64,000 nucleotides of DNA from Terebella lapidaria (Eukaryota > Annelida > Polychaeta > Terebellida > Terebellidae): NCBI GenBank assembly GCA_949152475.1, contig OX424564.1:27030165-27094164 (forward strand), given 5' to 3'. A program made the position numbers and the translations under genes. The notes under the pieces are model-generated. The model was not told the DNA's origin, did no database searches, and was given only the letters and a program-made list of their open reading frames with translations. This document shows, one piece after another, positions 42,601 through 63,911 of the stretch; within the stretch, counting starts at the first letter, position 1, and every line of letters starts with the position of its first letter.

Positions 42601-43805
42601 ATAAATTTAGACGAGATGCCGACAGGTCCATAATCTCAATGGTTAGGTGGCGAACCTTTCATGCCGGCGCCCAATCTAGAGAATCCCAAACATGGTGAAG
42701 TCAATAGCCAGCGGTCATTCGGACCTGCCCACGGACGGAGTTCAGATCCAGACAATCACCATAGAATGGCATATTGATCTTATCCGATGATAATGACAGG
42801 GATTAAAAAACCACAAAGTATGCTACGCATGTAGAATACGACCCCCTTCTTAGAAGGAGGCCGGGGTTCCGGTCATTCCGGCCAGACCGCGTTTTATAAG
42901 GTGCGATCCGGACGAAAATGAGCGTCACTCACTGCCGCGGCTGGTCCGCGCGTGCGGACTTAACAGCCGGTCCATCAAGAATAATGGTAAAACGATTTCC
43001 TGCCGTTAGAAACCTTATTCTACTATAAACAACCTTATGGTAGTGGCTCACGGGTGACAATGCACCTAAAGGCGTCATCTGAAAGCGTCCGGAGCGCCGG
43101 ACGAGTCACGCGGAAGAACAGCAGACATCAGTCCTCACATCCGGATACTCTTCCCGCGCCCATATGCCAGTTCCCCAAATCCGTAGCGGACGTAAATCCC
43201 AATCTCAGTCTGGCTATATCATTGGCTGTTCCGGGACCAAGGGGCATTCGGCAAATCCACAAAAGTGGTCTGGCCAGCATAGGCGTTGGGTTAACTACGC
43301 TGGACAGCAGTCCACATGGTGCGGATAGGCTTGCCACACGTCCCTAGTGCTAGAAACAACGGGAGGGCGGATGCGCAGCGTTACGACGTAAAGATGTCCA
43401 GAGACCTCAACTCCGGAGAGGAACACTCACAGAGGAAAGTCATCCGGATTCCTACGGAAAGGCCTAAAATCCATCCCAGGTGTGATAGATGGATACCACA
43501 GATGCATCCGCATGAGCGGAACATTAGTCCCACCCATAACGGGATGGCGCATGACGTTTCCGGCATGGCCATCATCGAGAACAGGTGTAATGTTGTTCAG
43601 ACTTCCATCTGACGCATCAGAGAGGTCCGGAAGACCCACCATACGGCGCACACGCTCGTCCAGTGTCCGCGGATGCTGACCAGAAGTGTCCAAAAGTGTA
43701 ACATCATCCGGTTCCGCATCCAGTATGAGTGGATCCATGAGATGCGGGGCCCTCGTATTTCTTCAGGTTGTCGATATGGACCACCAGTACTCTGTCCGGA
43801 TCGGA
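42601..43805 (-). pseudogene. 3' end of the gypsy element, beyond the duplicated unit
   Basis: Continues copy A past its duplicated part. Just after the integrase GPY/F module the minus strand reads a VHIDNLKKYEGP-like end, then 43427-43738 gives a 103-codon Asp/Pro-rich frame. No intact 3' LTR follows; only the degraded LTR piece at 41.2-41.5 kb is in a matching orientation. Confidence 0.6.
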
Positions 43806-43879
43806 ATCCCGATGAATCCGGTAGCCCACCTCTGTCACCTGTTTCAGTACAGTAAACGGGCCTACCCACGGCCGTGCAA

Positions 43880-46520
43880 ACTTGTTGCCTTGCTTAGCCG
43901 GTGGATACTAATAGTGCGCCTTGTCACCTTCGTTGAAAGCGGGCCTACCCTTAGCATGGGCGTCATAGCCGCGCTTTTGCCGGATAGCCGACTTATCCAG
44001 GCGCGCTCGCGCGAAGTCATGGGCGTTCGCCAGGGCATGGTGAACCCACTCAACGTACTCCGGACTGCACTGGGGTACCGGACTGGTTTCTGCCGTGGTT
44101 TGATACATGATATCCACAGGCAGATTGAGCTCCCGGCCGTACAACATCGCGTGCTGAGTTACTCCGGTCGAAGAGTGGACCGACGACCGGTATGCCATTA
44201 AGACATCCAGGAGGTGGTCATCCCAATCATTCGCACGATCATTTACAAAGGCCGTTAGCATATTCAGGATGGATCGATTGAATCATTCGACCTGTCCTTC
44301 AGACTGGGGCCTGTAAGGGGTGGTCCGGACCTTGGTACTCCCTAGCATCTATGCCAGGTTCCGGAACAGGTTGCTCTCAAATTGCGTGCCCTGATCCGAA
44401 TGTACCTGCATAGGTGCGCCATGGTAAACCACCCACCTACTCACCAGCAACGGAGCCACCTCTTCTGCGGTCTGGCGCCGCAGGGGATAGGTATCGGTGT
44501 ACTTGGTAAAATAGTCCGAGATCACCAGGATGTACCAGAGCTCACGCAAAGTGACCCAGTGAGTATCCAGTATGTCCAGGGCTTTCCGGTCAGAAGGCGC
44601 GACACCCTTAATGACCGGGACACCAAGCCGTTGGCCTCACTATCTGCAACCGGAATTGCTGCCCCAACAAGTAATGCCGGAACCGCTTGGTCATAGTTAC
44701 CACCGTGAGGAGCTCGCGGTGAGTCTTGCAGTAGTTCATTTGAGAGCGGCTGAGAGCCACACTTGCATAAGCCACTACACGCTCCTGCACGTCCACGATC
44801 TGTGAGAGGACACCGCCGAGTGCAAAGTTACTCGCGTCAGTGTCCAGGATGAATTCACAGTCCGAACGGGGATGCCGCAGCACCGGGGCTGCCACCAAAG
44901 CTTGCCGGAGGTCGGAGAAGGCGATTGCCTGCTCTGGTCCCCAGACGAAATCGGCGCCCTTTTCTGTGAGGATGGTAAGGGGGCGCGTGATCTCTGCGAA
45001 GCCTCAAATAAAACGGTGGTGGTAGCTCGCGAAGCCCAAAAAGGACCTCATGTCTGCCACGTTACAAGGCCGGGGCCAGTGTTGTATGGCCTCGATCTTC
45101 GAGTCTGGTCTAACTCCGGTGCCTGTTACTTCGCGGATGCGATGGAGCACCATCTGGAGGTTGGTGAGGGTTTCCTCGAACGACCAGCCATACACGACGA
45201 CATCGTCAATGTAAACTATACATCACTTCCAGAGGAACCCTTTTAGGACCATCTCCATGAGGCGCTCGAACGTCGCGGGGGTGGAGCAGAGCCCAAACGG
45301 CATTACCTTAAATTGGTAGAGCCCGTTCTTGGTAACAAAGGCAGTTTTTGCCCTATCACTCTCGTCCATCTCAACCTGCCAATACCCGGAGGCCAGATCC
45401 AGAGCACAGAAGTAGTGTGATCCAGCCAGGGCATCGAAGGTGTCCTCAATGTGTGGGAGAGGATATAAGTCCTTTTGCATGGCATCGTTGAGTTTACGAT
45501 AGTCCATGCAGAACCTCCACGAGCTGTCCTTCTTCTTCACCACATTGAACCACAGGACTGGCCCAAGGGCTATCACTGGGTTTGATGATGTCTAGCTCGA
45601 GCATCTTGTGCACCTCCTAGTCAATGACCTCTTGGTGCACAATAGCCGCTCGTCGTAGACGCTGTTTGATCGGACACTCGTCCAGGAGGTCGATGCGGTG
45701 TTTGGCCACATCTGTCTTGCCAACCCCACCACCAGGACACATCTGCATACTGCCAGAGCAGTTTGTGGAGAGCCTGGCGCTGATCTTCATCTAGCCGGTT
45801 CTTTGGAACACGAGATTCCAAATGGTCCGGCAGGGTGAACGGATCATCTCTGGCGGCGCGACAAACAGGATCATCAGGGAAAACCCGTCTAGATGCCACG
45901 AGTGTGGCAATGGCTGCCACACAACCGCGACGCAGTACAACTGGAACATCGGTGGGATTTACCACGAGAATAGGCACCGCATGGGCATCGGACTTGACCA
46001 GAGTCCCACCCAGTGCGAGCCCCGTTTCCCGGGCAAAATTACTCACGGGTAGCACTGTACATGGACGACCATCAAGGGGCATGCATGGGCGACGCGGCCT
46101 CGCCTCAGTGATCATCTCGCTCATAGGCGGCACAGTGGTTGTTCACGCCGCCCGCAGTTGGAATGAACGAGTCGGACCTGCCCGGAAGAGGAAGTGTGTG
46201 TCCTGTCCCATCCGGAGTTCGCCGGCACTGAAGTTGGCGATCACCCGGTGGATCTGGAGAAAATTCATCCCAATGATCCCGGCCGGTCCGATATCTGCAA
46301 CAATTGCCTCTGTCATGTACATCTTGTCAGCAAGGGTAATAGGCAGATCGATGATACCATGGATACGGACGCTATTGTTACCAGCCTCGAAGAGTTGGTA
46401 ACAGCCAGGATCCCGCAACACAAGGTCCCGCTTAAACGTCCCTGTATCCACGAGGGTAACCTCCGAGCCGGAGTCTACAAGAAACCAGACCGGTTCTCGC
46501 CCAAAATACGAAAGCAGATA
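43880..46520 (-). pseudogene. pol: pol of copy A: protease, RT, RNase H, integrase (inactivated)
   Basis: Protease with DSG active site near 46478. RT frame 45223-45576 with SSWRFCMDYRKLND; YIDDVVVYG follows after an in-frame TGA at 45220-45222. RNase H starts FILDTDASN near 44850. Integrase core carries SDYFTK and HSDQGTQFES (44349-44549), and a GPY/F module (ARPWVGPF) lies near 43870. Breaks shared with copy B: TAG after gag, TGA after protease (46143), a frame change near 45.6 kb, the TGA before YIDD, and stops within integrase. Copy A has one private stop at 45006 (CGA to TGA). Not functional as read. Confidence 0.85.
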
Positions 46521-47513
46521 CTAGCACGGGTCCTTTATCAGTGCGCACGTCGAATGACAGGGGTCACCCAGGGCGCTGGGTTCCGCTACGGAGTCCTCGT
46601 TATCTGCCTCAGCTGCGGAGGGACTAGACGGATCCTCAAGGACCACTTCCGGAGTAGTTATATATACTTGAGGGTCGTCCGGCTTGTCCGCAGGTGGGGC
46701 AGCCTCAGGTGCCACAGGACAACTGTCCCTGGTGTACGACAGCAGCGATCGAGCATCAGCCCTGCCCGCGGCAGAATTCGCAGGTGCGGATCCGTACACC
46801 ACAGACGTGGGCGCAGGAAAGCTAACAGCCGCCGCCGGATATGAACCCACGGACATCCCACCCGGACCAAATGCGGACGGAGCCCATGCCGATCCTGAGG
46901 CAGGGTAGCCGGCGTAGCTCGGGGCTGAGGCCACTGGTTGCCAGCTAGCTCCTGGAGCACTGTGCGGGGCAGGATAGGTCCACGTGGCCATGACTCCGGC
47001 TGCCAGAGCAGCGGAAGCGGTGGCCAACGTGGTCCCTCCAAGCCGCAGACCAGGTGCGGGTCCCATGGCATGGGTTATCGGCACCTGTGGGCTTGGATAA
47101 ACCAGGGGGAGGACCGGCAGACCAGTCATCCCTGAGTTGAAAGGGGTCGCAGGACTCACGCTCGGCGTGGCGGGCTGACAGCGCTTATACTCCTCCAGTG
47201 CCATCTGCACTATCCGCCGCTCCCTCTCCATCAGCTGATCTGAGGGTGGCTGGTATCGCGGAGAAGGCGAATGTGTCCTACGATCAGGTCGCCCAACGTG
47301 GGGCGGCCGGCCGCGGTCATAGCAGCCTGTGGGGGCCAGCTCATTGAGTGAGTGGGTGAGCTGGTCCATCATATTCTGGACAGACTGCCCGACATCCAGG
47401 CCGGGGGCTCTCGAGGGAGTCAACCTTGCCGGCGGTGGTAGCCGGTTCAGCCTGTCTGCCCATACGGAGCTAAGCTTGGTAGCCGGCACTCGATTCCAGA
47501 CGTCTGGAGACAT
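46521..47513 (-). CDS. gag: gag-like protein, copy A (330 codons)
   Basis: Pro/Ala-rich frame with a basic region RPDRRTHSPSPRYQPPSD and a predicted short helix ERRIVQMALEEYKR. No CCHC zinc knuckle is visible, unlike many gypsy gags. It ends in TAG, and the same frame continues directly into the protease. The product would form the element's particle if expressed. Copy A and B frames differ at a single residue (P/S). Confidence 0.7.
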   Translation of the reverse strand: MSPDVWNRVPATKLSSVWADRLNRLPPPARLTPSRAPGLDVGQSVQNMMDQLTHSLNELAPTGCYDRGRPPHVGRPDRRTHSPSPRYQPPSDQLMERERRIVQMALEEYKRCQPATPSVSPATPFNSGMTGLPVLPLVYPSPQVPITHAMGPAPGLRLGGTTLATASAALAAGVMATWTYPAPHSAPGASWQPVASAPSYAGYPASGSAWAPSAFGPGGMSVGSYPAAAVSFPAPTSVVYGSAPANSAAGRADARSLLSYTRDSCPVAPEAAPPADKPDDPQVYITTPEVVLEDPSSPSAAEADNEDSVAEPSALGDPCHSTCALIKDPC

Positions 47514-47941
47514 CCAGGGAAGAGTAGCGGTCGTGACGGACGTCTAGACGAGGGTAGGTGCGGAGTAGAGCTGTTCCCAGCTCCGCCCATAGCACCTAAA
47601 ACAGCAAGGCTCGGTCTCGAAGGCAACTGCTGTTGCAGCCCCACAGGGCTTGACTCTATGTCCGGAGACGGACACGTCGGGGACGTGTCCGTGGACTGGG
47701 ATTGGTCCTGCGGATCGTCCGGACGTCCTCCCGGACGACCGGAGTCCTCGCGAGTTTGCTCTCAGATGTCATGGGAGCGTGTATGCCGAGATACACTGTC
47801 GTTTTCGTTTATTTTATTAATTTTCTTCCTTGTCTGGAGTGTACTGGAGGAGCAGGCGGTCCCCAGGGATGAGGGGGCGAAGACATTGCGACGTTAGGCT
47901 GCCATGGGACGCCGTTGGACTGATCCTGGTCACGGCACCAA

Positions 47942-48856
47942 TGTAACGTTCAACGCCCGCGGCGCACAGGGCGCACACGGCGGGCGTCGGTAATTACTAG
48001 AACTACAACCAGGTAACAGTCCATCCGGACGAGTCCGGCCGTCATCATTATCATCACCATTATCATCACCAACATCAACAACATCATATACAACATGCAT
48101 AGTACATAGTTATGGTAATGTAGTCATGTGCAGAGCCTGAGATGCCATGGGGGCGGCACCACAGAACTCGCGCATGTGGGCATGTTGCTGGCCGGCCTTG
48201 TCGACGGCACTGCCGCACGGATAGAACCCTGGACAGCCCGACGGTGTGCCAGAGCCTGTGTCGCACCATCCCAGGTGATCCAGAGGGCGTACAACCCCGA
48301 GTCATCAAGATCTTCCCCACCTGAGCCCCCTATTGGAAGTCGTCCCCGAGGCCTGACTGGCCTTTACCCGAACAGGGACAAGGAGCTCATGGCATGAGCT
48401 CACCTGTCGTGCTCAATCTCTGGACAACTCCGGCCACAAAACATGTGGCCACAGTACTTATAGTCGATTCGTGAGCACGAGAGATCACGTAAACAGCCAT
48501 TGTTACAGTATAGTGAATAAAAGGATTAGAGAGCGTTGCGTAGTGCTTCGAACACGAAGCGGCCAAAAACAAGAAAGTGTTTAGAAAGAATCTCCTGCTG
48601 CGACCTTTGGGCAAAATTGCCACATTAATTTAATTTCAGTAGCTTATTCTAGCTACCAGCACTTATAACATCTGGGCAAAACAAAACGTCACCTACGTTT
48701 TCCCCAAATATAGGCCAGCCCTGATGCGAGGCAAAATTTTATTCCGTTTATAAGCCCACATGGGCTTATACAAGAGTATTTCTCCCCTTGTATTAGCCCA
48801 TGGGCTTATTCAAAGAGGGGCTTGAATACGCGGATCCCATGTTGTATTGTGTCACA
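47942..48856 (-). repeat. 5' LTR of copy A
   Basis: Begins TGTGACACAATAC and ends GAACGTTACA (TG...CA), and is followed at once by TTGGTGCCGTGACCAGG, a plausible tRNA primer-binding site whose tRNA I cannot name. It includes an imperfect (ATC)n stretch at 48050-48092. Confidence 0.85.
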
Positions 48857-48944
48857 TTGGTAGCTGGTAAATCCCGATGAATCCGGTAGCCCACCTCTGT
48901 CACCTGTTTCAGTACAGTAAACGGGCCTACCCACGGCCGTGCAA

Positions 48945-51585
48945 ACTTGTTGCCTTGCTTAGCCGGTGGATACTAATAGTGCGCCTTGTCACCTTCGTTG
49001 AAAGCGGGCCTACCCTTAGCATGGGCGTCATAGCCGCGCTTTTGCCGGATAGCCGACTTATCCAGGCGCGCTCGCGCGAAGTCATGGGCGTTCGCCAGGG
49101 CATGGTGAACCCACTCAACGTACTCCGGACTGCACTGGGGTACCGGACTGGTTTCTGCCGTGGTTTGATACATGATATCCACAGGCAGATTGAGCTCCCG
49201 GCCGTACAACATCGCGTGCTGAGTTACTCCGGTCGAAGAGTGGACCGACGACCGGTATGCCATTAAGACATCCAGGAGGTGGTCATCCCAATCATTCGCA
49301 CGATCATTTACAAAGGCCGTTAGCATATTCAGGATGGATCGATTGAATCATTCGACCTGTCCTTCAGACTGGGGCCTGTAAGGGGTGGTCCGGACCTTGG
49401 TACTCCCTAGCATCTATGCCAGGTTCCGGAACAGGTTGCTCTCAAATTGCGTGCCCTGATCCGAATGTACCTGCATAGGTGCGCCATGGTAAACCACCCA
49501 CCTACTCACCAGCAACGGAGCCACCTCTTCTGCGGTCTGGCGCCGCAGGGGATAGGTATCGGTGTACTTGGTAAAATAGTCCGAGATCACCAGGATGTAC
49601 CAGAGCTCACGCAAAGTGACCCAGTGAGTATCCAGTATGTCCAGGGCTTTCCGGTCAGAAGGCGCGACACCCTTAATGACCGGGACACCAAGCCGTTGGC
49701 CTCACTATCTGCAACCGGAATTGCTGCCCCAACAAGTAATGCCGGAACCGCTTGGTCATAGTTACCACCGTGAGGAGCTCGCGGTGAGTCGTGCAGTAGT
49801 TCATTTGAGAGCGGCTGAGAGCCACACTTGCATAAGCCACTACACGCTCCTGCACGTCCACGATCTGTGAGAGGACACCGCCGAGTGCAAAGTTACTCGC
49901 GTCAGTGTCCAGGATGAATTCACAGTCCGAACGGGGATGCCGCAGCACCGGGGCTGCCACCAAAGCTTGCCGGAGGTCGGAGAAGGCGATTGCCTGCTCT
50001 GGTCCCCAGACGAAATCGGCGCCCTTTTCTGTGAGGATGGTAAGGGGGCGCGTGATCTCTGCGAAGCCTCGAATAAAACGGTGGTGGTAGCTCGCGAAGC
50101 CCAAAAAGGACCTCATGTCTGCCACGTTACAAGGCCGGGGCCAGTGTTGTATGGCCTCGATCTTCGAGTCTGGTCTAACTCCGGTGCCTGTTACTTCGCG
50201 GATGCGATGGAGCACCATCTGGAGGTTGGTGAGGGTTTCCTCGAACGACCAGCCATACACGACGACATCGTCAATGTAAACTATACATCACTTCCAGAGG
50301 AACCCTTTTAGGACCATCTCCATGAGGCGCTCGAACGTCGCGGGGGTGGAGCAGAGCCCAAACGGCATTACCTTAAATTGGTAGAGCCCGTTCTTGGTAA
50401 CAAAGGCAGTTTTTGCCCTATCACTCTCGTCCATCTCAACCTGCCAATACCCGGAGGCCAGATCCAGAGCACAGAAGTAGTGTGATCCAGCCAGGGCATC
50501 GAAGGTGTCCTCAATGTGTGGGAGAGGATATAAGTCCTTTTGCATGGCATCGTTGAGTTTACGATAGTCCACGCAGAACCTCCACGAGCTGTCCTTCTTC
50601 TTCACCACATTGAACCACAGGACTGGCCCAAGGGCTATCACTGGGTTCGATGATGTCTAGCTCGAGCATCTTGTGCACCTCCTAGTCAATGACCTCTTGG
50701 TGCACAATAGCCGCTCGTCGTAGACGCTGTTTGATCGGACACTCGTCCAGGAGGTCGATGCGGTGTTTGGCCACATCTGTCTTGCCAACCCCACCACCAG
50801 GACACATCTGCATACTGCCAGAGCAGTTTGTGGAGAGCCTGGCGCTGAGCTTCATCTAGCCGGTTCTTTGGAACACGAGATTCCAAATGGTCCGGCAGGG
50901 TGAACGGATCATCTCTGGCGGCGCGACAAACAGGATCATCAGGGAAAACCCGTCTAGATGCCACGAGTGTGGCAATGGCTGCCACACAACCGCGACGCAG
51001 TACAACTGGAACATCGGTGGGATTTACCACGAGAATAGGCACCGCATGGGCATCGGACTTGACCAGAGTCCCACCCAGTGCGAGCCCCGTTTCCCGGGCA
51101 AAATTACTCACGGGTAGCACTGTACATGGACGACCATCAAGGGGCATGCATGGGCGACGCGGCCTCGCCTCAGCGATCATCTCGCTCATAGGCGGCACAG
51201 TGGTTGTTCACGCCGCCCGCAGTTGGAATGAACGAGTCGGACCTGCCCGGAAGAGGAAGTGTGTGTCCTGTCCCATCCGGAGTTCGCCGGCACTGAAGTT
51301 GGCGATCACCCGGTGGATCTGGAGAAAATTCATCCCAATGATCCCGGCCGGTCCGATATCTGCAACAATTGCCTCTGTCATGTACATCTTGTCAGCAAGG
51401 GTAATAGGCAGATCGATGATACCATGGATACGGACGCTATTGTTACCAGCCTCGAAGAGTTGGTAACAGCCAGGATCCCGCAACACAAGGTCCCGCTTAA
51501 ACGTCCCTGTATCCACGAGGGTAACCTCCGAGCCGGAGTCTACAAGAAACCAGACCGGTTCTCGCCCAAAATACGAAAGCAGATA
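48945..51585 (-). pseudogene. pol: pol of copy B: protease, RT, RNase H, integrase (inactivated)
   Basis: Same domain order and same shared stops as copy A. The connection/RNase H frame is longer here (49673-50260, 195 codons) because codon 50071-50069 reads CGA where copy A has TGA. The integrase core frame is 49414-49614 and the C-terminal frame is 48973-49326. Confidence 0.85.
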
Positions 51586-52578
51586 CTAGCACGGGTCCTT
51601 TATCAGTGCGCACGTCGAATGACAGGGGTCACCCAGGGCGCTGGGTTCCGCTACGGAGTCCTCGTTATCTGCCTCAGCTGCGGAGGAACTAGACGGATCC
51701 TCAAGGACCACTTCCGGAGTAGTTATATATACTTGAGGGTCGTCCGGCTTGTCCGCAGGTGGGGCAGCCTCAGGTGCCACAGGACAACTGTCCCTGGTGT
51801 ACGACAGCAGCGATCGAGCATCAGCCCTGCCCGCGGCAGAATTCGCAGGTGCGGATCCGTACACCACAGACGTGGGCGCAGGAAAGCTAACAGCCGCCGC
51901 CGGGTATGAACCCACGGACATCCCACCCGGACCAAATGCGGACGGAGCCCATGCCGATCCTGAGGCAGGGTAGCCGGCGTAGCTCGGGGCTGAGGCCACT
52001 GGTTGCCAGCTAGCTCCTGGAGCACTGTGCGGGGCAGGATAGGTCCACGTGGCCATGACTCCGGCTGCCAGAGCAGCGGAAGCGGTGGCCAACGTGGTCC
52101 CTCCAAGCCGCAGACCAGGTGCGGGTCCCATGGCATGGGTTATCGGCACCTGTGGGCTTGGATAAACCAGGGGGAGGACCGGCAGACCAGTCATCCCTGA
52201 GTTGAAAGGGGTCGCAGGACTCACGCTCGGCGTGGCGGGCTGACAGCGCTTATACTCCTCCAGTGCCATCTGCACTATCCGCCGCTCCCTCTCCATCAGC
52301 TGATCTGAGGGTGGCTGGTATCGCGGAGAAGGCGAATGTGTCCTACGATCAGGTCGCCCAACGTGGGGCGGCCGGCCGCGGTCATAGCAGCCTGTGGGGG
52401 CCAGCTCATTGAGTGAGTGGGTGAGCTGGTCCATCATATTCTGGACAGACTGCCCGACATCCAGGCCGGGGGCTCTCGAGGGAGTCAACCTTGCCGGCGG
52501 TGGTAGCCGGTTCAGCCTGTCTGCCCATACGGAGCTAAGCTTGGTAGCCGGCACTCGATTCCAGACGTCTGGAGACAT
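51586..52578 (-). CDS. gag: gag-like protein, copy B (330 codons)
   Basis: Identical in layout to the copy A frame, including the terminal TAG in frame with the protease. It is Pro/Ala-rich with no CCHC knuckle. Confidence 0.7.
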   Translation of the reverse strand: MSPDVWNRVPATKLSSVWADRLNRLPPPARLTPSRAPGLDVGQSVQNMMDQLTHSLNELAPTGCYDRGRPPHVGRPDRRTHSPSPRYQPPSDQLMERERRIVQMALEEYKRCQPATPSVSPATPFNSGMTGLPVLPLVYPSPQVPITHAMGPAPGLRLGGTTLATASAALAAGVMATWTYPAPHSAPGASWQPVASAPSYAGYPASGSAWAPSAFGPGGMSVGSYPAAAVSFPAPTSVVYGSAPANSAAGRADARSLLSYTRDSCPVAPEAAPPADKPDDPQVYITTPEVVLEDPSSSSAAEADNEDSVAEPSALGDPCHSTCALIKDPC

Positions 52579-53006
52579 CCAGGGAAGAGTAGCGGTCGTG
52601 ACGGACGTCTAGACGAGGGTAGGTGCGGAGTAGAGCCGTTCCCAGCTCCGCCCATAGCACCTAAAACAGCAAGGCTCGGTCTCGAAGGCAACTGCTGTTG
52701 CAGCCCCACAGGGCTTGACTCTATGTCCGGAGACGGACACGTCGGGGACGTGTCCGTGGACTGGGATTGGTCCTGCGGATCGTCCGGACGTCCTCCCGGA
52801 CGACCGGAGTCCTCGCGAGTTTGCTCTCAGATGTCATGGGAGCGTGTATGCCGAGATACACTGTCGTTTTCGTTTATTTTATTAATTTTCTTCCTTGTCT
52901 GGAGTGTACTGGAGGAGCAGGCGGTCCCCAGGGATGAGGGGGCGAAGACATTGCGACGTTAGGCTGCCATGGGACGCCGTTGGACTGATCCTGGTCACGG
53001 CACCAA

Positions 53007-53921
53007 TGTAACGTTCAACGCCCGCGGCGCACAGGGCGCACACGGCGGGCGTCGGTAATTACTAGAACTACAACCAGGTAACAGTCCATCCGGACGAGTC
53101 CGGCCGTCATCATTATCATCACCATTATCATCACCAACATCAACAACATCATATACAACATGCATAGTACATAGTTATGGTAATGTAGTCATGTGCAGAG
53201 CCTGAGATGCCATGGGGGCGGCACCACAGAACTCGCGCATGTGGGCATGTTGCTGGCCGGCCTTGTCGACGGCACTGCCGCACGGATAGAACCCTGGACA
53301 GCCCGACGGTGTGCCAGAGCCTGTGTCGCACCATCCCAGGTGATCCAGAGGGCGTACAACCCCGAGTCATCAAGATCTTCCCCACCTGAGCCCCCTATTG
53401 GAAGTCGTCCCCGAGGCCTGACTGGCCTTTACCCGAACAGGGACAAGGAGCTCATGGCATGAGCTCACCTGTCGTGCTCAATCTCTGGACAACTCCGGCC
53501 ACAAAACATGTGGCCACAGTACTTATAGTCGATTCGTGAGCACGAGAGATCACGTAAACAGCCATTGTTACAGTATAGTGAATAAAAGGATTAGAGAGCG
53601 TTGCGTAGTGCTTCGAACACGAAGCGGCCAAAAACAAGAAAGTGTTTAGAAAGAATCTCCTGCTGCGACCTTTGGGCAAAATTGCCACATTAATTTAATT
53701 TCAGTAGCTTATTCTAGCTACCAGCACTTATAACATCTGGGCAAAACAAAACGTCACCTACGTTTTCCCCAAATATAGGCCAGCCCTGATGCGAGGCAAA
53801 ATTTTATTCCGTTTATAAGCCCACATGGGCTTATACAAGAGTATTTCTCCCCTTGTATTAGCCCATGGGCTTATTCAAAGAGGGGCTTGAATACGCGGAT
53901 CCCATGTTGTATTGTGTCACA
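53007..53921 (-). repeat. 5' LTR of copy B
   Basis: Same limits as the copy A LTR, shifted by 5,065 bp. The flank to its right, TTGGTAGCTGGTAAAT (53922-53937), is also present next to the copy A LTR, so host flank was duplicated together with the element. Confidence 0.85.
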
Positions 53922-53935
53922 TTGGTAGCTGGTAA

Positions 53936-54478
53936 ATGCTGCAGACACATGTCTTCGTGGACCTGGTTTTTTATCGGTCCAGCGGTCCAGCCTCGTCGAA
54001 GTTGTTTGCTCAGCATATTATATTGTTCACACGTTTGTCAAATGGAATGGTTTATTAAATCATTAGCTCGAATAAATATAAACAAACCGATTCATTCAAT
54101 AAACTTAACAAACCGAGGAGACGACTCAACATATGGAGCAAATGGTTTGAACAATATATTGAGAGAACAATTTCTTTTTTCAGTGAACTGCATAATTTAT
54201 CTTGAACGAATGAATTGATAATTTGAGCGAACAGTTTGTAAATTTAGCAAGCGATTAATTTGATGCCCATGTTATTTCCTACAAGGTGCTCCGTATAAAA
54301 TCTCCGACGATATGAAGAAGTCTCTGGAGTCCAATTAGTAGAAATTTAGGCCTGGTGCATTTTGGCCTACCCGAAACTGTGCTGCCACCTGATGACTGGG
54401 AGCCAGGAACGAAGTAGACGGCTCATCCAAGCTATCGATTTCGGAATCAACATTCGACGATTCGTGTCAAAAGTCAAA
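53936..54478 (+). promoter_or_regulatory. Upstream region of SAC1
   Basis: AT-rich DNA between the copy B LTR and the SAC1 ATG. No TATA box or CpG cluster stands out. It must contain the SAC1 promoter unless a 5' non-coding exon lies beyond the retroelement. Confidence 0.35.
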
Positions 54479-57400
54479 ATGGCAGTGCACGAAACGATGC
54501 GGCTGTAAGTTGTTTATTGGCGATTTATGTCGTAATGTGTGCTAAATGAATGCAAATCATTGTGGTGAATTAATTTACTAGCAACAAGGCTACGATTTTA
54601 ATCATCTGAATCATTGATCACCAATTACAAATCACAATCAACAGTGACTGACAGTGACAGTCATTTTGACAACCCCCCCCCCCCCCCCCCTCTCCCCCTA
54701 TGCCTATCCCCTCCCTCACTGTAAACGAGTTAGAAAAATCAGAGTATAGTGTACCGAGTGAGGCACACAATGTTATAAAATAGGTCAACAGAAATAATTG
54801 ACCAATTATTCCAGAATCTATATTCTGAGCTGTTAATATTTCCGTTCGACAGAAATATTGAAAACCAGAATGTGGCAGCGCTATATTACGAGCAGTTGCA
54901 TGTTACGATATATGTTTGATCCTCACTCATTGCAATCGATTGCTGAGATCAAACAACATGTCAAACAATGCATGAAATTTGAAATATACTTACGTACACA
55001 GAGACTGATATTGAGCAAAAGCAATGGCAGGCTATCAGGATGATAATACTAGTTTCATCTGTAAGTTGTTCGATCTCATATCATCTTTTGATACAGTGTC
55101 ACTCTACATTTTTAGCTTACCGGCCCTTTGGGCCGATAAGCTATTGTCGTGGTATTTCGTCCGGCGTCCGTTGTCCGTCCATCGTCCGTCGTCCGTCCGG
55201 CGTCCGTCCGGGTCTGTAACTTTTTTTTGACATGATGAATTTCCCCATAAATTTGTCAGAACATACCTTGGGCCAGTATCTAAAGACGTTTTTTGAATTT
55301 TTTTGATTGAATCGTTTTTGCCCATTTGGCGGCCATTTTTGACGAAAGTTCCCAATTTTGGACTTTGGAGGCCATTTTCTCAAAAACTGTCTGATCAGTT
55401 TTGAGATTTTTGTTTCAAAACATTCCTCTCATGTACCTTCATGACGTGTATAAGTTTCGTTGCCCTTGAATCGTCGGTCTGCGTGTGGCGGCCATTTTGA
55501 TTTTTTGACGGGTCGGCCAAAAAAAATGTTTTCGTCCCAAATCAAGTCACTATTCATTTTGAGCCATTTCCAGCAAAAAAAAAAAAAAAATTTTTTTTGG
55601 CCATTGAAAAATTTTTTGGACTTGGAAAATTTCACCCAATTTTCCTTCATAATGGGAGCTGTGCGGAGTAAACTCATAGAACACTTGAAGATAGAGCCTA
55701 AGTATTGGCACATTCAAATGGGAAATCATATATTGCGGTTTGAGTGATGACCTTGAATTTGACCTTCAATGACCTTGGAAGGTCAAAACGACCTTTTTTG
55801 TCGAAAAATGGCCAAATTGGATTTTTGATGGCCATTTTCTCAAAAACTGTCTGATCAGTTTTGAGATTTTTGTTTTAAAACATTCCCCCCATGTACCTCT
55901 ATGATGTGTATAAGTTTTGTTGCCCTTGAATCGCCGGTCTGCGTGTGGCGGCCATTTTGATTTTTTGACGGGTTGGCAAAATTTTTTTTTTTTCCAAAAT
56001 CAAGTCACTATTCGTTTTGAGCCATTTCCAGCAGAAAAAAAACAAAATTTTTTTTTGGGTCATTGAAAAATTTTTTGGACTTAGAAAATTTCATCAATTT
56101 TTCCTTCATAATGGGAGCTGTGCAGAGTAAACTCATAGAAGACTTCAAAATAGAGCCTAAGTATTGGCACATTTAAATGGGAAATCATATATTGCGGTTT
56201 GAGTGATGACCTTGAATTTGGCCTTCAATGACCGTGGAAGGTCAAAAACGATGAATTTTGTCTTTGGTGGCCATTTTGTCTAAATCTATTCAGACAGTTT
56301 TTCTCAAAATCATGTATGAGATTATCTTTAAGTACCTTTGTGATGTGTAATTTGATTTCGTATTATAGTCCATACAGATAATGTGTTTCCAGCAACATTT
56401 ATGAACATCTTTTGACAATTAGAGTTCAAGATCAGTGTAACAAATTATATGTTGGAAAATCAATACTCTGCGTTTCTCATCATTGCCGGTAAGCTACAGC
56501 ACCCTTGGTGCTATGTTTTTTATTCTTTAGCCATGTCAGTGGAGACCGCTTCTATCTGGAACCAGTCGGGACGACCGACAAAACGGATGAGATACTTGTC
56601 ATTGACAGAGTCAGCCAGGAGCTACGGCTTGGTGTGTGCATCAAATAACTCTCAAGAGCAGAAGTTTCATTGGAACTCAGCAGCAAACTTTGTCAAATAT
56701 AAAAATTACTTAGAACTATTTCAGCCGTTCAAAATTCAGCACATAACTGTAATATATATTGCCCTGTTTGGTATTTTGTTTTAACCATGTCATATTTGTG
56801 TTATGTAATTTCACAGAAACTAACTTGACTATTCCAAGCAACACAGAAGTCAAGTTAATTCATGGACTTTTCGGAATAATTCGCCTGTTGGCAGGTATGT
56901 TACACACTTCCTGGGATTCTTGGTAGCTCCGTTTATTTTACCCCCTGCTCATCCATTGTACTGAATTCTACACAGTTTTATGCATGTTTTGCAGGTCCAT
57001 ACCTTGTTGTTATCACCCGTAAAATGAAAGTCGGTGAAATAAACGGCCAGTCCATCTACAAAGTCATGGGCACAGAGGTGATACCCTACAAAAAGACAAC
57101 TCTTCATCTCAATGAGCAACAGGTAAATCAAGAGCCATACACATATACTTCTACTTCGTAACTTATGATCATTCTATATGTATTTATTGCCATAGTAGTA
57201 GTATTAGTTTATTGACTTTTTTATCACAAAAATGGTACATAGACGGGATGAAACACGTATTGAATATAAATGTCCAAAGATTAAGAATAAATTCAGAGAC
57301 AATAGTTCCAGTAATTCCAAGAATACAAGTACACTATATGGTATGTAAGTATGCAAAATTGCAAGATAATGTTTGCACAGGAAGTTGAACATACATCTAC

Positions 57401-60400
57401 TTCTGTTGATATCATAATTGTTTAATATAGGGGGAGTATGTTTTAAATAATGGTTATATGGAATACATGGATTACTGTTATGTCTATTTTATCAAGATTT
57501 ATTCGCAGAGGCGGAAGATGCAGGTTTTGTGAGCTTTCCTATCATATAATTTCAGATTGCTGACAACAATAAATATCTAGCCATGATCGAGCATGTCCTA
57601 TCACTTGATGGTTACTACTTTGCGTACACGTACGATATTACACACACCATGCAACGCCTGGATAACACTAGTCCCGACTTTGTTCATATGCCTCTCCATG
57701 AAAGGGTTTGTATATCTATTTTTTATGACCATGAGTACCATAGGTAATATAGAATGTAAAGAATCTATCTTGAATGTTTCTGTTTTGAAAGACCCTATGT
57801 CATGTATATGGGAATGGAATGTAACATGTAGGCAACATAAATTTTGTGAATGTTTGCAATGTAATGTGTTGATGATGAAAAAGTATAAATGGCTGATATA
57901 AATGTTCTACCCGTTAGCCTGTTTGGCAGTTGTAAGTGTTACTTACCATTGCCTATTCTGTTTTCCAGGCAGACACACGGTTCGTGTGGAACGGTCACTT
58001 CCTTCGAGAACTCAGTCAGCAGCCAGAACTAAGTCGTTTCTGTCTTCCTCTGCTACATGGCTGTATCCTTACAACTTCATCCGTGATGGTGATGTGTTGA
58101 CTTCTGTGATTGAGACCACTGGAAGAAACTCAAAAGTGGTTCATCATAATAAAAATATCGAAAATAATAATCATAATGTTAGAAATATATTTTAGAGTGC
58201 TTTTTCATGAAGATCATGCTCTATGTCTTTCACGATATACATGATATATCTCATTTTGTCCAGTCATTTCCTTGACCAATGACATGACAGATATCAATAT
58301 TAGCAGTCGTCGAGTGAAGGGCCACAGTTTCCAGTACATCCTGGTCTCTCGGCGATCATGTTTCCGGGCGGGAACGCGCTACTACGTCCGTGGAGTCGAT
58401 AGCGAGGGCCACGCTGCAAACTTCGTGGAAACCGAACAAATCGTCGAGTTCGAGGGCATGAGGACATCGTTTGTGCAGGTTTGCAACTGTTTTAATTAAT
58501 GTCCATTGCTAACTACCTTTTGCGACAATGTTGACCTCTATAGTAAACAGTAAAAAGTTGGGCGATGAGCATACAACATTTTATGCATGTTATGACAAAT
58601 AGTATGAATTTGGATGTGTTACTTAAAGTACTAGTAAAGTGCAAATAGGATATTAAGTCATATGAAAAATATCATTGATCTGAGCAGAATGGTTTTTACG
58701 GTATATCAATATCACTATCCGTTCAAAAGTTACAGCCATTTGAAGCTGCGATTCTGGAACTATATTACAGAAGCCACTTGAAAAGTTTTAACAGCTCATT
58801 TATATGCAAATTAGATGTTAATGAGAACTCATGACGTCATGAGGGAAACATATTTTAATTACTGGTAGGATATTTTAAGCAATTAATATAATGATTCTTA
58901 TTGAAAGTTTTGACGATCTGACTAGTGCATATTATTATGTACCATACATAGTCAATATCCACGAAACCCATAGTGTTGCTATGGCTACCAGTCGTTCCCA
59001 ATAGCCGTAGTTACCCATGGTTGCCATGGCCGTTAACTGCCAAGTCAATCTATCTCGAGACTTTCTGTCGATTATTTATGAATTAATTTAATATAGAGCT
59101 CAAGTTGGCACCATTTTTATTTGTGCATACCCTGTTCTATGTGGGTTTCTGGCCCTGGCAACCATGGTTGCTATGGGCCATACCGGGTCACTGGTTACCT
59201 TGACAACAACAGAAAAAGTGAAAACACTGATTATTCATATTGAAAACTGTATGGAATAAGTTTTGATGAATATGCATAGCATTCAATGAATGAATAATAC
59301 ATATCATAGTTCCTAATTAAAACAGCTTCCCCCGATGGTGTCATGAATATCTCATTTGCATACTAATTAGTTAAATTGTTTGGAAAAAGCAAATTTGCCG
59401 ATTTGAGTCTTTAAAGTGCTGTAACCTTTGAACGGATTTTGATATATTCACGTGCCGTAAAGACCATTTTGCTCAGATCCATGAGATCTTTCATATAAGT
59501 TCACATCATATTCGCACTACCGGGTATACCAGTACTTTAAGACTAATACATATATGTTTGAAATATTGAATATTTTATTATTATGAGTCGATTACTTTGA
59601 AATATGAGATCATACTTTATTATTATTAAAGGATTAAATATTAAGGATATTTGGCATATGAGTAGTATAATGATCTGTATAAATTATGTCATTTTGACAG
59701 ACGAGAGGTTCAGTGCCACTGTTCTGGTATCAGTACCCAAACCTCAAGTACAAACCTAACCCGGTGATAGTCTCCACACAGAACCAGGTAAATCTACCTC
59801 TACCTCTATAATAAACACAAATGAAAATTGGTGGAACATGTAATGAACATTGATTTTAAGTAGAAGCAAGTTTAAACTTCCCCTGAAAAGTGCATTATAT
59901 TACTGTATTCAGATATGTTGCTAAATATACTGAATTTCAATGAAATGCACAAAATTGGTCATCTGTTTCAAAATTTCTTTATAACCTTTGACCTTGGATT
60001 TTATTGTCGTAATGAAGGTGGACGGCTTCCAGCGGCACTTTGCAGCTCAAATCTACAACTACGGCAAACAAGTTCTCATCAATCTGGTGAGAAAATTCAC
60101 TGAGTCAACCAACACTCAAAGACTCACAGATCTATCATACTCTGCAAAATCATATCTCTTAAATTGTTGAAGAGAATTGAAAATTGGTGGAATCTTTGAA
60201 TCTGGGAGATGCTCATCAACACTCAACAAATCTGATATGTGTATTTTTAATACTGTTTTGTTCAAGGTAGAACTTTCTTTCAGCTGGACCAGAAAGGACA
60301 TGAGAAACAACTGGTTCAGGCTTTTGGTGATGCAGTGCAAAGGTGTAACAACAACAGCATTAGGTAATGCATGACAAACTAAATAACATTGTGCTTTGGC

Positions 60401-63400
60401 CTTGCCTATGTTCCCTCACATCAGGAATATTGGATAGAGATTCTAAAGGTCACATGATATTACTTTCATTCAAGGTATGAACCATTTGACTTCCACAAGG
60501 AGTGTCGGAAGATGCAGTGGCATCGGCTATCATTGCTGACGGACCGATTGGCTGATGACATCACAAACTTTGGGTGAATAATTTGGTTTTTTCTTTGATT
60601 TGGAAAGGTTCACAATGACCTGGGAAAGCTGTATCTTGAAGATCGAAAGATGTCATTCAATAAATAAACTGCATGTATTAGGAAGTTTATGTAACAGATG
60701 AGGATATTTTGAAAATCTGGTCATTCCACAGCCGATATTTTGCAGGTACTTCATGATTCAAGGGGAGAAGGTGTTAGCCAATCAGGAGGGAGTGTTCCGT
60801 ACGAACTGTATCGACTGCCTTGATAGAACCAATGTAGTTCAGAGCCTTCTAGCTAGGAAAAGTCTTCAACAGCAGTTGGTCGTGAGTTCACAAAATATGT
60901 ACCGGTATACCTTTGTGGTGTGGTTCAATATTGAAAAATATAAGCGTTGGCCTATTTGTCGATAATGTGCCATCTTGAGTTTTTTCGTTGATTTTTTCTC
61001 ATAGAAAATGGGAATTCTCAACATGGGAGAGAGAGTGGAAGACCAGAAGGACTTCTACTATTCCTTGAACAACAGTATGTATCAATATATAAATAGAATA
61101 TACGGTACACAGTAGAAAAATACAGGAATAGATAAGAAAATATGCTGCTGTCAGACAGACTTAACTAAATAAAATAACGTGTCTGCAGTAATCACAACTG
61201 CAACATAGATATACAAAGCAGTCGGTTAATGTTCGAATTTCCGTGAGATTTTTGGTTTAGTTTTGATTGGGATTTGCTGAAAGTGATAGTATCATGCTTT
61301 CCATTGTCTCGCAGTCTGGGCAGACAACGCAGATGCCTGTGCAAAACAGTACGCTGGAACAGGGGCGTTAAAAACAGACTTCACCAGGTACGTATGTAAA
61401 TACAGGAATAGAAAGAATATTGGCAAAGTTTTTCCTAAATTGAGACCCATGGTTGTCAAGTTAGGATTATTTTGTTTATATTTAGGTAATTGTGAAATAA
61501 CTACTTTTTGTTCCTGCACAATGGATTTTGCCGTGTGTCCCTCAAAATACAATGTGTGTGTTTGCATTAGCAGGTATTCAATGCCATATTTTACCACTAT
61601 AATAAACACAGTGAAGTGTTCATTATAGAGGTATGTATGAAATAAATACTGGTGCTGAGAATAAAACTGGTCATGTTGAATGAAGTATGGTTCAAATCAT
61701 ATGTACAGTTCTAACCATTTAGTGTCAAAATTTTCAGAGTGGTCTTTTGTGAAGAGGTGGTCTTTATCACATGTATAGGTTCTACCATATATTTATTCCA
61801 GCATTAACATCTTTATTTACTCGTCACAGGACAGGCCGGAGGACGATTCTAGGCATCGTCAGGGACGGCCTACGAGCTTCCTACCGCTATATCATAAACA
61901 ACTTCCACGACGGTTATCGGCAGGTAGAGAAGATGAGACACAAAAGTTCCGCAATGTTGCCTGGCTTGGCTCGGCTTCAGTTATGGGTTGTAGAGTCAAC
62001 CTAATTTTCAGTTTTCTCACAACGGCACCTGGCATTTGTTTATATAGTTGTAGCAGAAACCCATAATCTGTTTCTGATTGTGAAAAGTACGATTTACACT
62101 TGCATAATTGCTTACAGTTCATGGGATATTTTAGACTCAACATTTTAAAAATGAGGCTTGCATGGTCCTCGATAAGTTTTACCTGAAAAGTCCAATTCAA
62201 TAGAATGGTTTCCATACTTGATCAAGAAGCAGATTGGTTAGGAAACAGATACCAGGTGTTTGCATTGGCAAAATTATATATGTACAAATTGGTTAACATT
62301 TAGCCAACTGAAAGACTCCCAACTTATGTTCTGGACTGGCTTTCATAGTTGCTCCTGAGATGGTTTTGGGACAATTTTGTTTCTGTTGCAGAGTCCTGAG
62401 TCCATTGATTACTAAACATTACTAACCGTGTATATATCTCACTTGTTCTTATATGTTTCAGTTATTGTTTGCCGGTTCCCATCCCAAATATATTTAGTGT
62501 TGTTTCTGGTTCATTTTGTTTCTGGTTACAAATCAATAAATTCTCCAAACATTGGAAAAATCTGATCATGACAACTTACAACCAAAAATAATGATGTTAC
62601 ATTTTGAAAAAAATGGATTTGAAACAAAGCAAACCAGTAGCAAAAACAAAAACACTTGCATGCCAGCAAAAGAATTGGATGCCAGCTGAATTTGGATGCC
62701 TCTACAACAGTAAAATTCCAACCACGAATCTTGCAATTCTAATGCTTGGCATCCGCTGAAATTTGAATATTCACAGAACGGGTAAACGCACGAAGATGGG
62801 TCTCCTAAGAGATGGTTGGAACTCGGGCGTTCGCTATCTGATGAATAATTTCTATGATGGGTTTCGACAGGTATAACCACTTTTGAAACTTGTAGGACTA
62901 ATAATTGTAGGCCATATTGCAGAATTTCAAAAAGAGATTGTAACACAACAATTTCCAACTTTTCAAATTTCAAGTCTAAGATTTTATAGGCCTTGTAAAT
63001 AAACCTATAGTACTAACTGTGATGGTGTTTTCGTTTTCGTCCATGTAGACTCCCATATTCAGCACTTGAATTGAATAAACTTTCATATTCGTGGCTATGT
63101 GTATACTATATACTAGATATCATTGATTTCAATATAAATATTCATTGGGGAGAATGGAAGTTGGAACTGATGTGTCAGCTATCATAGTAAATACCTGCAT
63201 GTAGAAAAAAACCTTTGCTATAAGCGAATAAAACAAGTACTTGCCTGTAAATATGAACGTATATCGAAATGTGTCTGTCGTCTTCCCCCAGGACTCGATA
63301 GATTTATTCCTCGGAAACTATGTCGTGGAGGACAGCGAAGGCATCACAAAACCTTCACCGCTTCGACCGGAACGGGACTGGAAGTTTTTCGCAGTAAGTT

Positions 63401-63911
63401 ATGTGACAGTCATTCGATGTCATGACTTGAACGGGCGTAAATCAGTTTCACACTTCAGTGCACCTTGCATATATATATGAAAACAAATCTATCATAAATT
63501 TTTGACTTGAATATCAATGTTATTTTCATTTTCTAGCTCCCAGCCATCTTCCTCGTTGCGTTCTCGATGTGTGTCATCAGTCTGCTTATCCCTGATGGTA
63601 AGACCTCAAATGAAAACATGACAAAAAGTTATTGCCACCCTGATGTCAGCCTTGTATGTTGCGAAAACTTTTTAACGCATTCCAAGATGATTTAATTTGA
63701 AGTCATTGAATCGATAACTGTCATCTCACACTCGGAATTGGATATACGTGATGAGTTTTATCCTTTATTTTCAGAAAACCCGAGTGAGCAGATCATGTAC
63801 ATTCTGTTTTGGGGCGGAGCAAGTGCGATCACGCTCGCGATCATGTACTACTACGGGAAGGAATTCGTTGATAAACCGCGACTCGTGCTGACGAAGGGCA
63901 AGACCGATTGA
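54479..63911 (+). CDS. SACM1L: SAC1 phosphatidylinositide phosphatase (complete, 18 exon positions)
   Basis: Exons: 54479-54504, 56531-56631, 56817-56894, 56995-57122, 57556-57705, 57969-58062, 58264-58478, 59701-59787, 60018-60086, 60284-60363, 60475-60573, 60746-60881, 61005-61074, 61315-61387, then either 61830-61923 or 62777-62870, then 63292-63393, 63538-63598, 63775-63911. All borders are AG/GT and frames join to 599 residues (human 587). The SAC domain contains the catalytic CX5R loop [10 protein letters not shown] with Cys397 and Arg403. Two membrane spans (about 535-553 and 561-581) and a C-terminal KGKTD, which fits the K-x-K-x-x COPI retrieval motif, place it in the ER/Golgi membrane. 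The family dephosphorylates PI4P. The short exon 1 has a good AAAATGG start context. Introns 1 and 7 hold transposon relics. Confidence 0.97.
54673..54690. repeat. Poly-C tract in SAC1 intron 1
   Basis: 18 consecutive C followed by a CT-rich stretch. Confidence 0.9.
55113..56496. mobile_element. Non-autonomous element in SAC1 intron 1
   Basis: Ends are 12-bp perfect inverted repeats (TAGCTTACCGGC and GCCGGTAAGCTA). After a CCGTCC/GTCCGTC-rich left part, a block of about 459 bp is repeated twice (from about 55370 and 55829), each with CTGATCAGTTTTGAGATTTT, GCGTGTGGCGGCCATTTTGA and TGACCTTGAATTTG. No coding capacity. Superfamily uncertain. It ends 34 bp before exon 2, inside the normal branch-point zone. 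Confidence 0.75.
58622..59541. mobile_element. 920-bp foldback element in SAC1 intron 7
   Basis: Ends are CTTAAAGTACT and AGTACTTTAAG, and the inverted similarity continues imperfectly for about 140 bp (GATCTGAGCAGAATGG against the reverse complement of CCATTTTGCTCAGATC; CCGTTCAAAAGTTACAG against its counterpart at about 59411-59433). No transposase frame. Confidence 0.75.
61830..61923 (+). CDS. SACM1L: SAC1 alternative exon 15a
   Basis: 94 nt, entered in phase 2 and left in phase 0, with a TCACAG acceptor and CAG|GTAGAG donor. Encodes [19 protein letters not shown] and ends FHDGYRQ. It aligns residue for residue with exon 15b and with the human segment before the first membrane span. It lacks the Trp-Asn-Ser that 15b and human share. 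Confidence 0.85.
62777..62870 (+). CDS. SACM1L: SAC1 alternative exon 15b
   Basis: 94 nt, same phases as 15a, with a TCACAG acceptor and CAG|GTATAA donor. Encodes [19 protein letters not shown] and ends FYDGFRQ, closer to the human sequence than 15a (shared KRT, DGWNS, DGFRQ). It is probably the ancestral form. Confidence 0.88.

Follow-up and report, generated by a model that had tools for sequence, protein, structure and literature searches.

The window, by which we mean the whole stretch of 64,000 nucleotides analysed here, carried a SAC1 (SACM1L) gene in which two versions of exon 15, named 15a and 15b, were modelled in tandem, with the following features.

54479-63911, forward strand: SAC1 (SACM1L) gene, coding part only; 19 coding exons were modelled, 15a and 15b both included
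61315-61387, forward strand: exon 14, 73 nt, ending in ...DFTR, in a phase common to both exon 15 copies
61388-61829, forward strand: intron 14, 442 nt
61830-61923, forward strand: exon 15a, 94 nt, the divergent extra version
61924-62776, forward strand: intron between 15a and 15b, 853 nt
62777-62870, forward strand: canonical exon 15b, 94 nt
62871-63291, forward strand: intron after 15b, 421 nt
63292-63393, forward strand: next exon after 15b, 102 nt, read in the correct frame only when a single exon 15 precedes it

In the 19-exon model the coding region was complete, AG/GT borders were present at every intron, and an uninterrupted SAC1 product of 598 aa was obtained with 15a alone and likewise with 15b alone. 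The product matched yeast Sac1 (4tu3) with an E value of 1.3e-108, carried the CX5R(T/S) motif of the Sac catalytic domain (NCIDCLDRT) and could be aligned with yeast Sac1 through the region of the two C-terminal membrane helices, which in a model of the Paralvinella orthologue, made from the Paralvinella protein, occupied residues 522-543 and 549-572. It therefore shares with yeast Sac1 (3lwt, 4tu3, 8c81) the character of a full-length orthologue with both the CX5R motif and the C-terminal membrane segments. The SAC1 proteins of the annelids Paralvinella and Capitella ranked first (best 120 of 5196 matched). In a protein tree of 44 rows, from which the exon-15 segment had been taken out, Paralvinella adjoined the SAC1 of the window (77% identity, support 100/99) and Capitella fell outside this pair (support 98/96); judged by this tree, the genome is that of an annelid, nearest to Paralvinella. 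One SAC1 locus of this type was found in the 761.6-Mb assembly.

Other repeats and frames were observed around the gene. Intron 1 of SAC1 contained a direct repeat of ~460 bp (55330-56251, 90% identical), and just upstream of the gene a 5,068-bp block was repeated directly in tandem (43805-48872 and 48870-53937) with 99.8% identity, each copy having open reading frames of 330 and 216 aa at matching places. The 330-aa frame had no Pfam match, and the block could be a recent duplication, a mobile element or an assembly effect. At the other end of the window, an open frame of 694 aa on the reverse strand (1302-3386) encoded PHD and PHD-like zinc fingers.

The original prediction had described 15a and 15b as alternative versions of one exon, and its coordinates, lengths of 94 nt, AG/GT borders and phase all proved exact. 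The two are adjacent homologous exons of one gene with the same borders and phase, as is characteristic of mutually exclusive tandem-duplicated exons, a well-known type of event. Their products were identical at 17 of 31 residues and their DNA at 51 of 94 bases (43 differing), and the split codon encoded Arg with either exon. With a profile built from 83 unique segments, the window excluded, 15a reached 53.4 bits (E 1.8e-18, two-sequence search), which makes a chance resemblance between the two untenable. The prediction that exactly one exon 15 works was likewise confirmed, since with both exons or with neither the stop fell on codon 3 of the exon that follows, at codon 502 and codon 471, respectively; this breakage of the frame by double inclusion or double skipping is again typical of mutually exclusive tandem-duplicated exons. 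The two stops lay 248 nt (both exons) and 153 nt (neither) before the last junction, which by the usual rule is enough for nonsense-mediated decay. When the assembly was searched with 15a, scoring the best candidates only, the matches at an E value of 10 or better were 15a itself (2.4e-15), 15b (7.9e-7) and one weak match (0.031) on a small AT-rich contig with an in-frame stop. The search of the 761.6-Mb assembly revealed no third copy of the exon and no further SAC1 gene of the same kind.

The segment encoded by 15b was closer than that of 15a to the corresponding segment in all 120 listed proteins (best 120 of 5196 matched), and we therefore take 15b as the canonical exon and 15a as an extra, diverged copy. 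Each of these best 120 of 5196 proteins, fish SAC1 included, had one version, of the 15b type; a 15a-type segment was absent from these 120, which included molluscan, vertebrate and cnidarian proteins, and 15a reached at most 19/31 identities with any of them. What sets this gene apart from its relatives is thus that residues 462-492 exist in a further version, one absent from the listed 120 (best 120 of 5196). Among 46 short proteins, 35 held the segment (P0121-P0156 without P0152), and one of these fragments, P0145, was nearer to 15a than to 15b (BLOSUM62 96 versus 86; 18 versus 17 identities); it had kept Asn at residue 476 and was unconvincing as an orthologue. Proteins of Pinctada and Actinostola considered as relatives of 15a proved to have segments of the 15b type. 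Scans of viral contigs with the 15b segment and of prokaryote genomes with the 15a segment returned nothing, which says little, both being non-animal collections. No orthologue of 15a was obtained in the protein searches, and no sign of its conservation in another species, the lack of which in sister species the original prediction had named as refuting, appeared among the proteins searched.

An odd feature of 15a, which the original prediction had not remarked on, was residue 476 (segment position 15), which is Arg in 15a and Asn in 120 of the 120 listed proteins (best 120 of 5196). Asn476 was also present in yeast Sac1 and in 33 of the 35 fragments, the exceptions being P0147 (Arg) and P0135 (Val), which suggests that the protein could accept the change. 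FIG4 (chain 7k1w) had Gln at the residue aligned to 476, as read by eye.

Identity between 15a and 15b at codon positions 1, 2 and 3 was 19/31, 24/31 and 8/32, respectively (position 3 versus positions 1 and 2, Fisher p 4.5e-5), the third-position value being at chance level, and dS was saturated (NG86 undefined, ML 24). The 120 listed proteins gave 83 unique segments, across which 14 residues were invariant, and 15a kept 13 of these; some of the 14 do vary in more distant proteins, for example in yeast. The amino acid differences between 15a and 15b affected 1 of the 14 invariant positions as compared with 13 of the 17 variable ones (Fisher p 1.3e-4). Saturated third positions together with 13 of 14 invariant residues kept indicate that 15a has been under coding selection, as originally predicted, its divergence having gathered at third codon positions and at freely varying residues; a short recent idle phase is possible. 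The statement that neither copy shows a stop or decay also held, as 15a had no stop, no length change and both splice sites. A neutral simulation was started from 15b, in which a copy counted as a survivor if its splice sites and reading frame were intact and 17/31 or more residues were retained; indels were omitted, which favours survival. Survivors made up 14.5% of copies at 0.25 substitutions per site and 0.245% at 0.5, and there were none among 20,000 at 0.75, 1.0 and 1.5. By a rough position-weight score, the splice sites of 15a and 15b were within the range of the other exons of the gene, and the pyrimidine share before 15b (0.52) was the lowest of 18 acceptors. Both versions were thus found to have been under coding constraint in this one genome.

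Exon 15 encodes residues 462-492, a numbering on which the Paralvinella protein and the 587-aa fish SAC1 (Cys389) agree. When the Paralvinella protein was modelled with AlphaFold2 (mean pLDDT of 87.9), the exon took in the last part of a short helix and the greater part of a long one, 467-498. Alignment to this model extended only to residue 453 for the crystal 3lwt, whose sequence runs further, and to residue 446 for the crystal 4tu3, and 8c81, which was solved with the membrane anchors, aligned to residue 590 (ranges only). The exon had been predicted to lie at the end of the catalytic domain just before the membrane anchor; the site is not simply the end of that domain, and falls in the stretch of ~70 residues between it and the anchor. 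According to the cited sections of PMC5829913, the ~70 residues that follow the catalytic domain of SAC1 lacked order in the crystal, and PI4P was not depleted by a construct from which 452-587, and with them this region and the anchor, had been removed. In the membrane-embedded complex the post-catalytic region of Sac1 is reported to be structured (PMC10550967, in extract). Modelling with low agreement between methods has singled out Y482 and K483 as residues that probably touch an OSBP-related protein (PMC13081691, in extract). Positions 482-483, checked on fish SAC1, fall in exon 15, where 15a has I-I and 15b has L-M. Among the near-membrane helices considered in the same extract, 464-500 included, notable hydrophobicity was given for 119-135 only (PMC13081691), which speaks against a simple membrane role of the swap, and the helical moments of the 15a and 15b versions were about equal; a membrane role is accordingly no more than a possibility. 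Judging from the model, the swap would alter the helix between catalytic domain and anchor and not the catalytic loop, and it is there that an effect would be expected.

With 43 of their 94 bases different and with unrelated flanks, the copies far exceed what an allelic or assembly duplicate would present, and a misassembly or two alleles placed in tandem can practically be dismissed as the source of the pair, even though the separate upstream 5-kb block repeated at 99.8% demonstrates that near-identical duplicates do occur in the window. A relict, that is, a once-used duplicate exon that was preserved by earlier selection, is no longer spliced in and has recently become idle, would account for the lack of an orthologue in the protein searches and for the missing Asn, which all 120 of the 120 listed proteins have. 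We nevertheless consider a relict distinctly unlikely: 15a has no stop, no length change and two splice sites of ordinary strength, its residues and third positions show long constraint, and its idle time must be short, only 0.245% of neutral copies being this good at 0.5 substitutions per site. Still less probable is that 15a serves mainly as a poison cassette, which would bring a stop into a transcript that already has 15b and lower the dose of SAC1 through nonsense-mediated decay. The stop that double inclusion brings at codon 502, with 248 nt to go to the last junction, is as such a cassette would have it, but a poison cassette needs no conserved protein, and 15a keeps 13 of the 14 invariant residues in the SAC1 frame.

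With regard to age, no residual similarity was detected between the flanking 200 bp or the introns of 15a and 15b, and this lack of similarity in the flanking 200 bp indicates that the duplication is old. On a profile score that contrasted 13 annelids with 27 others, 15a obtained +6.7 bits, annelids left out singly obtained 2.4 to 21.2 and others -31.7 to -0.7; Owenia (-15.1) and Dimorphilus (-0.6) both stood outside the set of 13 annelids. The score of 15a fell to -1.8 when its two best positions were left out, and because its score depends on these two positions the annelid estimate is fragile. The sequences thus weakly suggest an old duplication that took place inside the annelids. A duplication older than the annelids and lost in most lineages, which would be compatible with two retained alternative exons, appears unlikely to us; the saturated third positions (8/32) and an identity of at most 19/31 to any of the 120 listed proteins are in line with it, but 15a scores as annelid (+6.7 bits, though by a margin that depends on two positions) and no 15a type occurs in the molluscan, vertebrate and cnidarian proteins of the listed 120.

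The reading we prefer, with a probability of about 0.74, is an old tandem exon duplication of which both copies have been kept as mutually exclusive alternative exons. The ancestral exon 15 of SAC1 would have been duplicated in tandem long ago and both copies retained, each productive transcript carrying one of them; the choice may be regulated and may vary with tissue. Splicing in of 15b would yield the ordinary SAC1, and splicing in of 15a an isoform with 14 of the 31 residues changed in 462-492. Transcripts with both exons or neither would reach an early stop and be removed by nonsense-mediated decay, and such decay could by itself ensure that exactly one exon is used, with no need of a device dedicated to exclusion. 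Between the two isoforms a difference would be expected in the seating of SAC1 on the membrane, in partner docking or in uptake of the PI4P substrate. That the 15a isoform is functionally different, Arg476 and the rebuilt helix changing lipid substrate use, membrane angle or the docking of partners such as OSBP-related proteins, is a tentative proposal which we hold to be rather less probable than its opposite.

Several devices that might enforce exclusion were considered. Steric hindrance was rejected, the intron between 15a and 15b being 853 nt long and the other modelled introns of the gene 100-2026 nt, and a clash of U2 and U12 sites is unlikely, as the AG and GTA sites that flank each exon look ordinary and lie within the range of the gene's others. 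RNA pairing between the 15a-15b intron and the intron after 15b (62152/62883) reached -28.6 kcal/mol, with 1 of 40 and then 9 of 240 shuffles as strong; for the other two intron pairs, 14/40 and 26/40 shuffles were as strong. Support for a docking/selector pairing, for which the original prediction had proposed a search, was thus not convincing, 9/240 falling short for the best of three intron pairs. The SAC1 exons share the tandem arrangement and the only-one logic of the docking/selector arrays with competing RNA structures described in the cited part of PMC6071210, and differ from them in that their introns showed no pairing convincingly above shuffles once three pairs are counted.

A second pair of tandem exons was recognized in the same genome. 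Searching exon by exon with TIGR01474, below the curated cut-off, we obtained a coq-2-like pair in the animal's own assembly (G000, C2:3592367-3592497 and 3593481-3593614, L021) of 131 and 134 nt, 983 nt apart, in which one exon works and both or none breaks the frame. It may represent the a/e pair linked with the synthesis of rhodoquinone in annelids. As a control, the coq-2-like pair shows that an animal of this kind does have such exons, their use in SAC1 being a separate matter. Mutually exclusive coq-2 exons have been reported in helminths, annelids and molluscs (PMC7434440, in extract). The SAC1 pair resembles the coq-2 exons of that extract in consisting of tandem homologous exons, in belonging to an enzyme of lipid-type metabolism from the same phylum and in a swap that alters enzyme helices; it differs in that coq-2 comes with transcripts and functional evidence of a substrate switch and the SAC1 pair is known here from the genome (PMC7434440). 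The exon lengths also differ, being equal in the SAC1 pair (94/94) and unequal in the coq-2-like pair (131/134). Human tandem duplicated exon substitutions, in which a homologous exon pair likewise alters one region of a protein, are described in the cited sections of PMC9741552 as mostly ancient and mostly conservative in their substitutions. SACM1L is absent from the main text of that report (PMC9741552); the SAC1 pair was seen in one annelid only. Should the 15a isoform differ, the worm would switch its ER sink for PI4P by splicing, as helminths switch COQ-2.

To our knowledge SAC1 is a single-form housekeeping enzyme, and no earlier report of mutually exclusive exons in SAC1/SACM1L was found in the literature searched, at the level of titles and the starts of abstracts. 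The region between its catalytic domain and its anchor is required for activity and poorly understood, and a natural second version of the helix, kept under selection, would reveal which of its residues may change. SAC1 removes PI4P at the ER and thereby drives lipid exchange at contact sites, according to the cited sections of PMC5829913; a second version of the helix, kept under selection, would place control of the lipid gradient under control of splicing.

The remaining matches of the SAC1 search were a FIG4-like frame (C7), an exon-size match (C12) and AT-rich contigs with in-frame stops. Two loci of the animal's own assembly, G000 (C250:12836-14155, L005, and C110:1897-3208, L008), encoded SAC-type phosphatases interrupted by several in-frame TAA/TAG codons, with a G+C content of 0.31 and 0.35, respectively, and two of the stops on C250 coincided with Glu of SAC1. 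These frames are perhaps DNA of a living associate, a ciliate on or in the worm. The FIG4-like gene (C7:14305933-14307573, L012), assigned by eye, formed one open frame of 940 aa and was apparently intronless, unlike the many-exon SAC1, and is perhaps a retrocopy.
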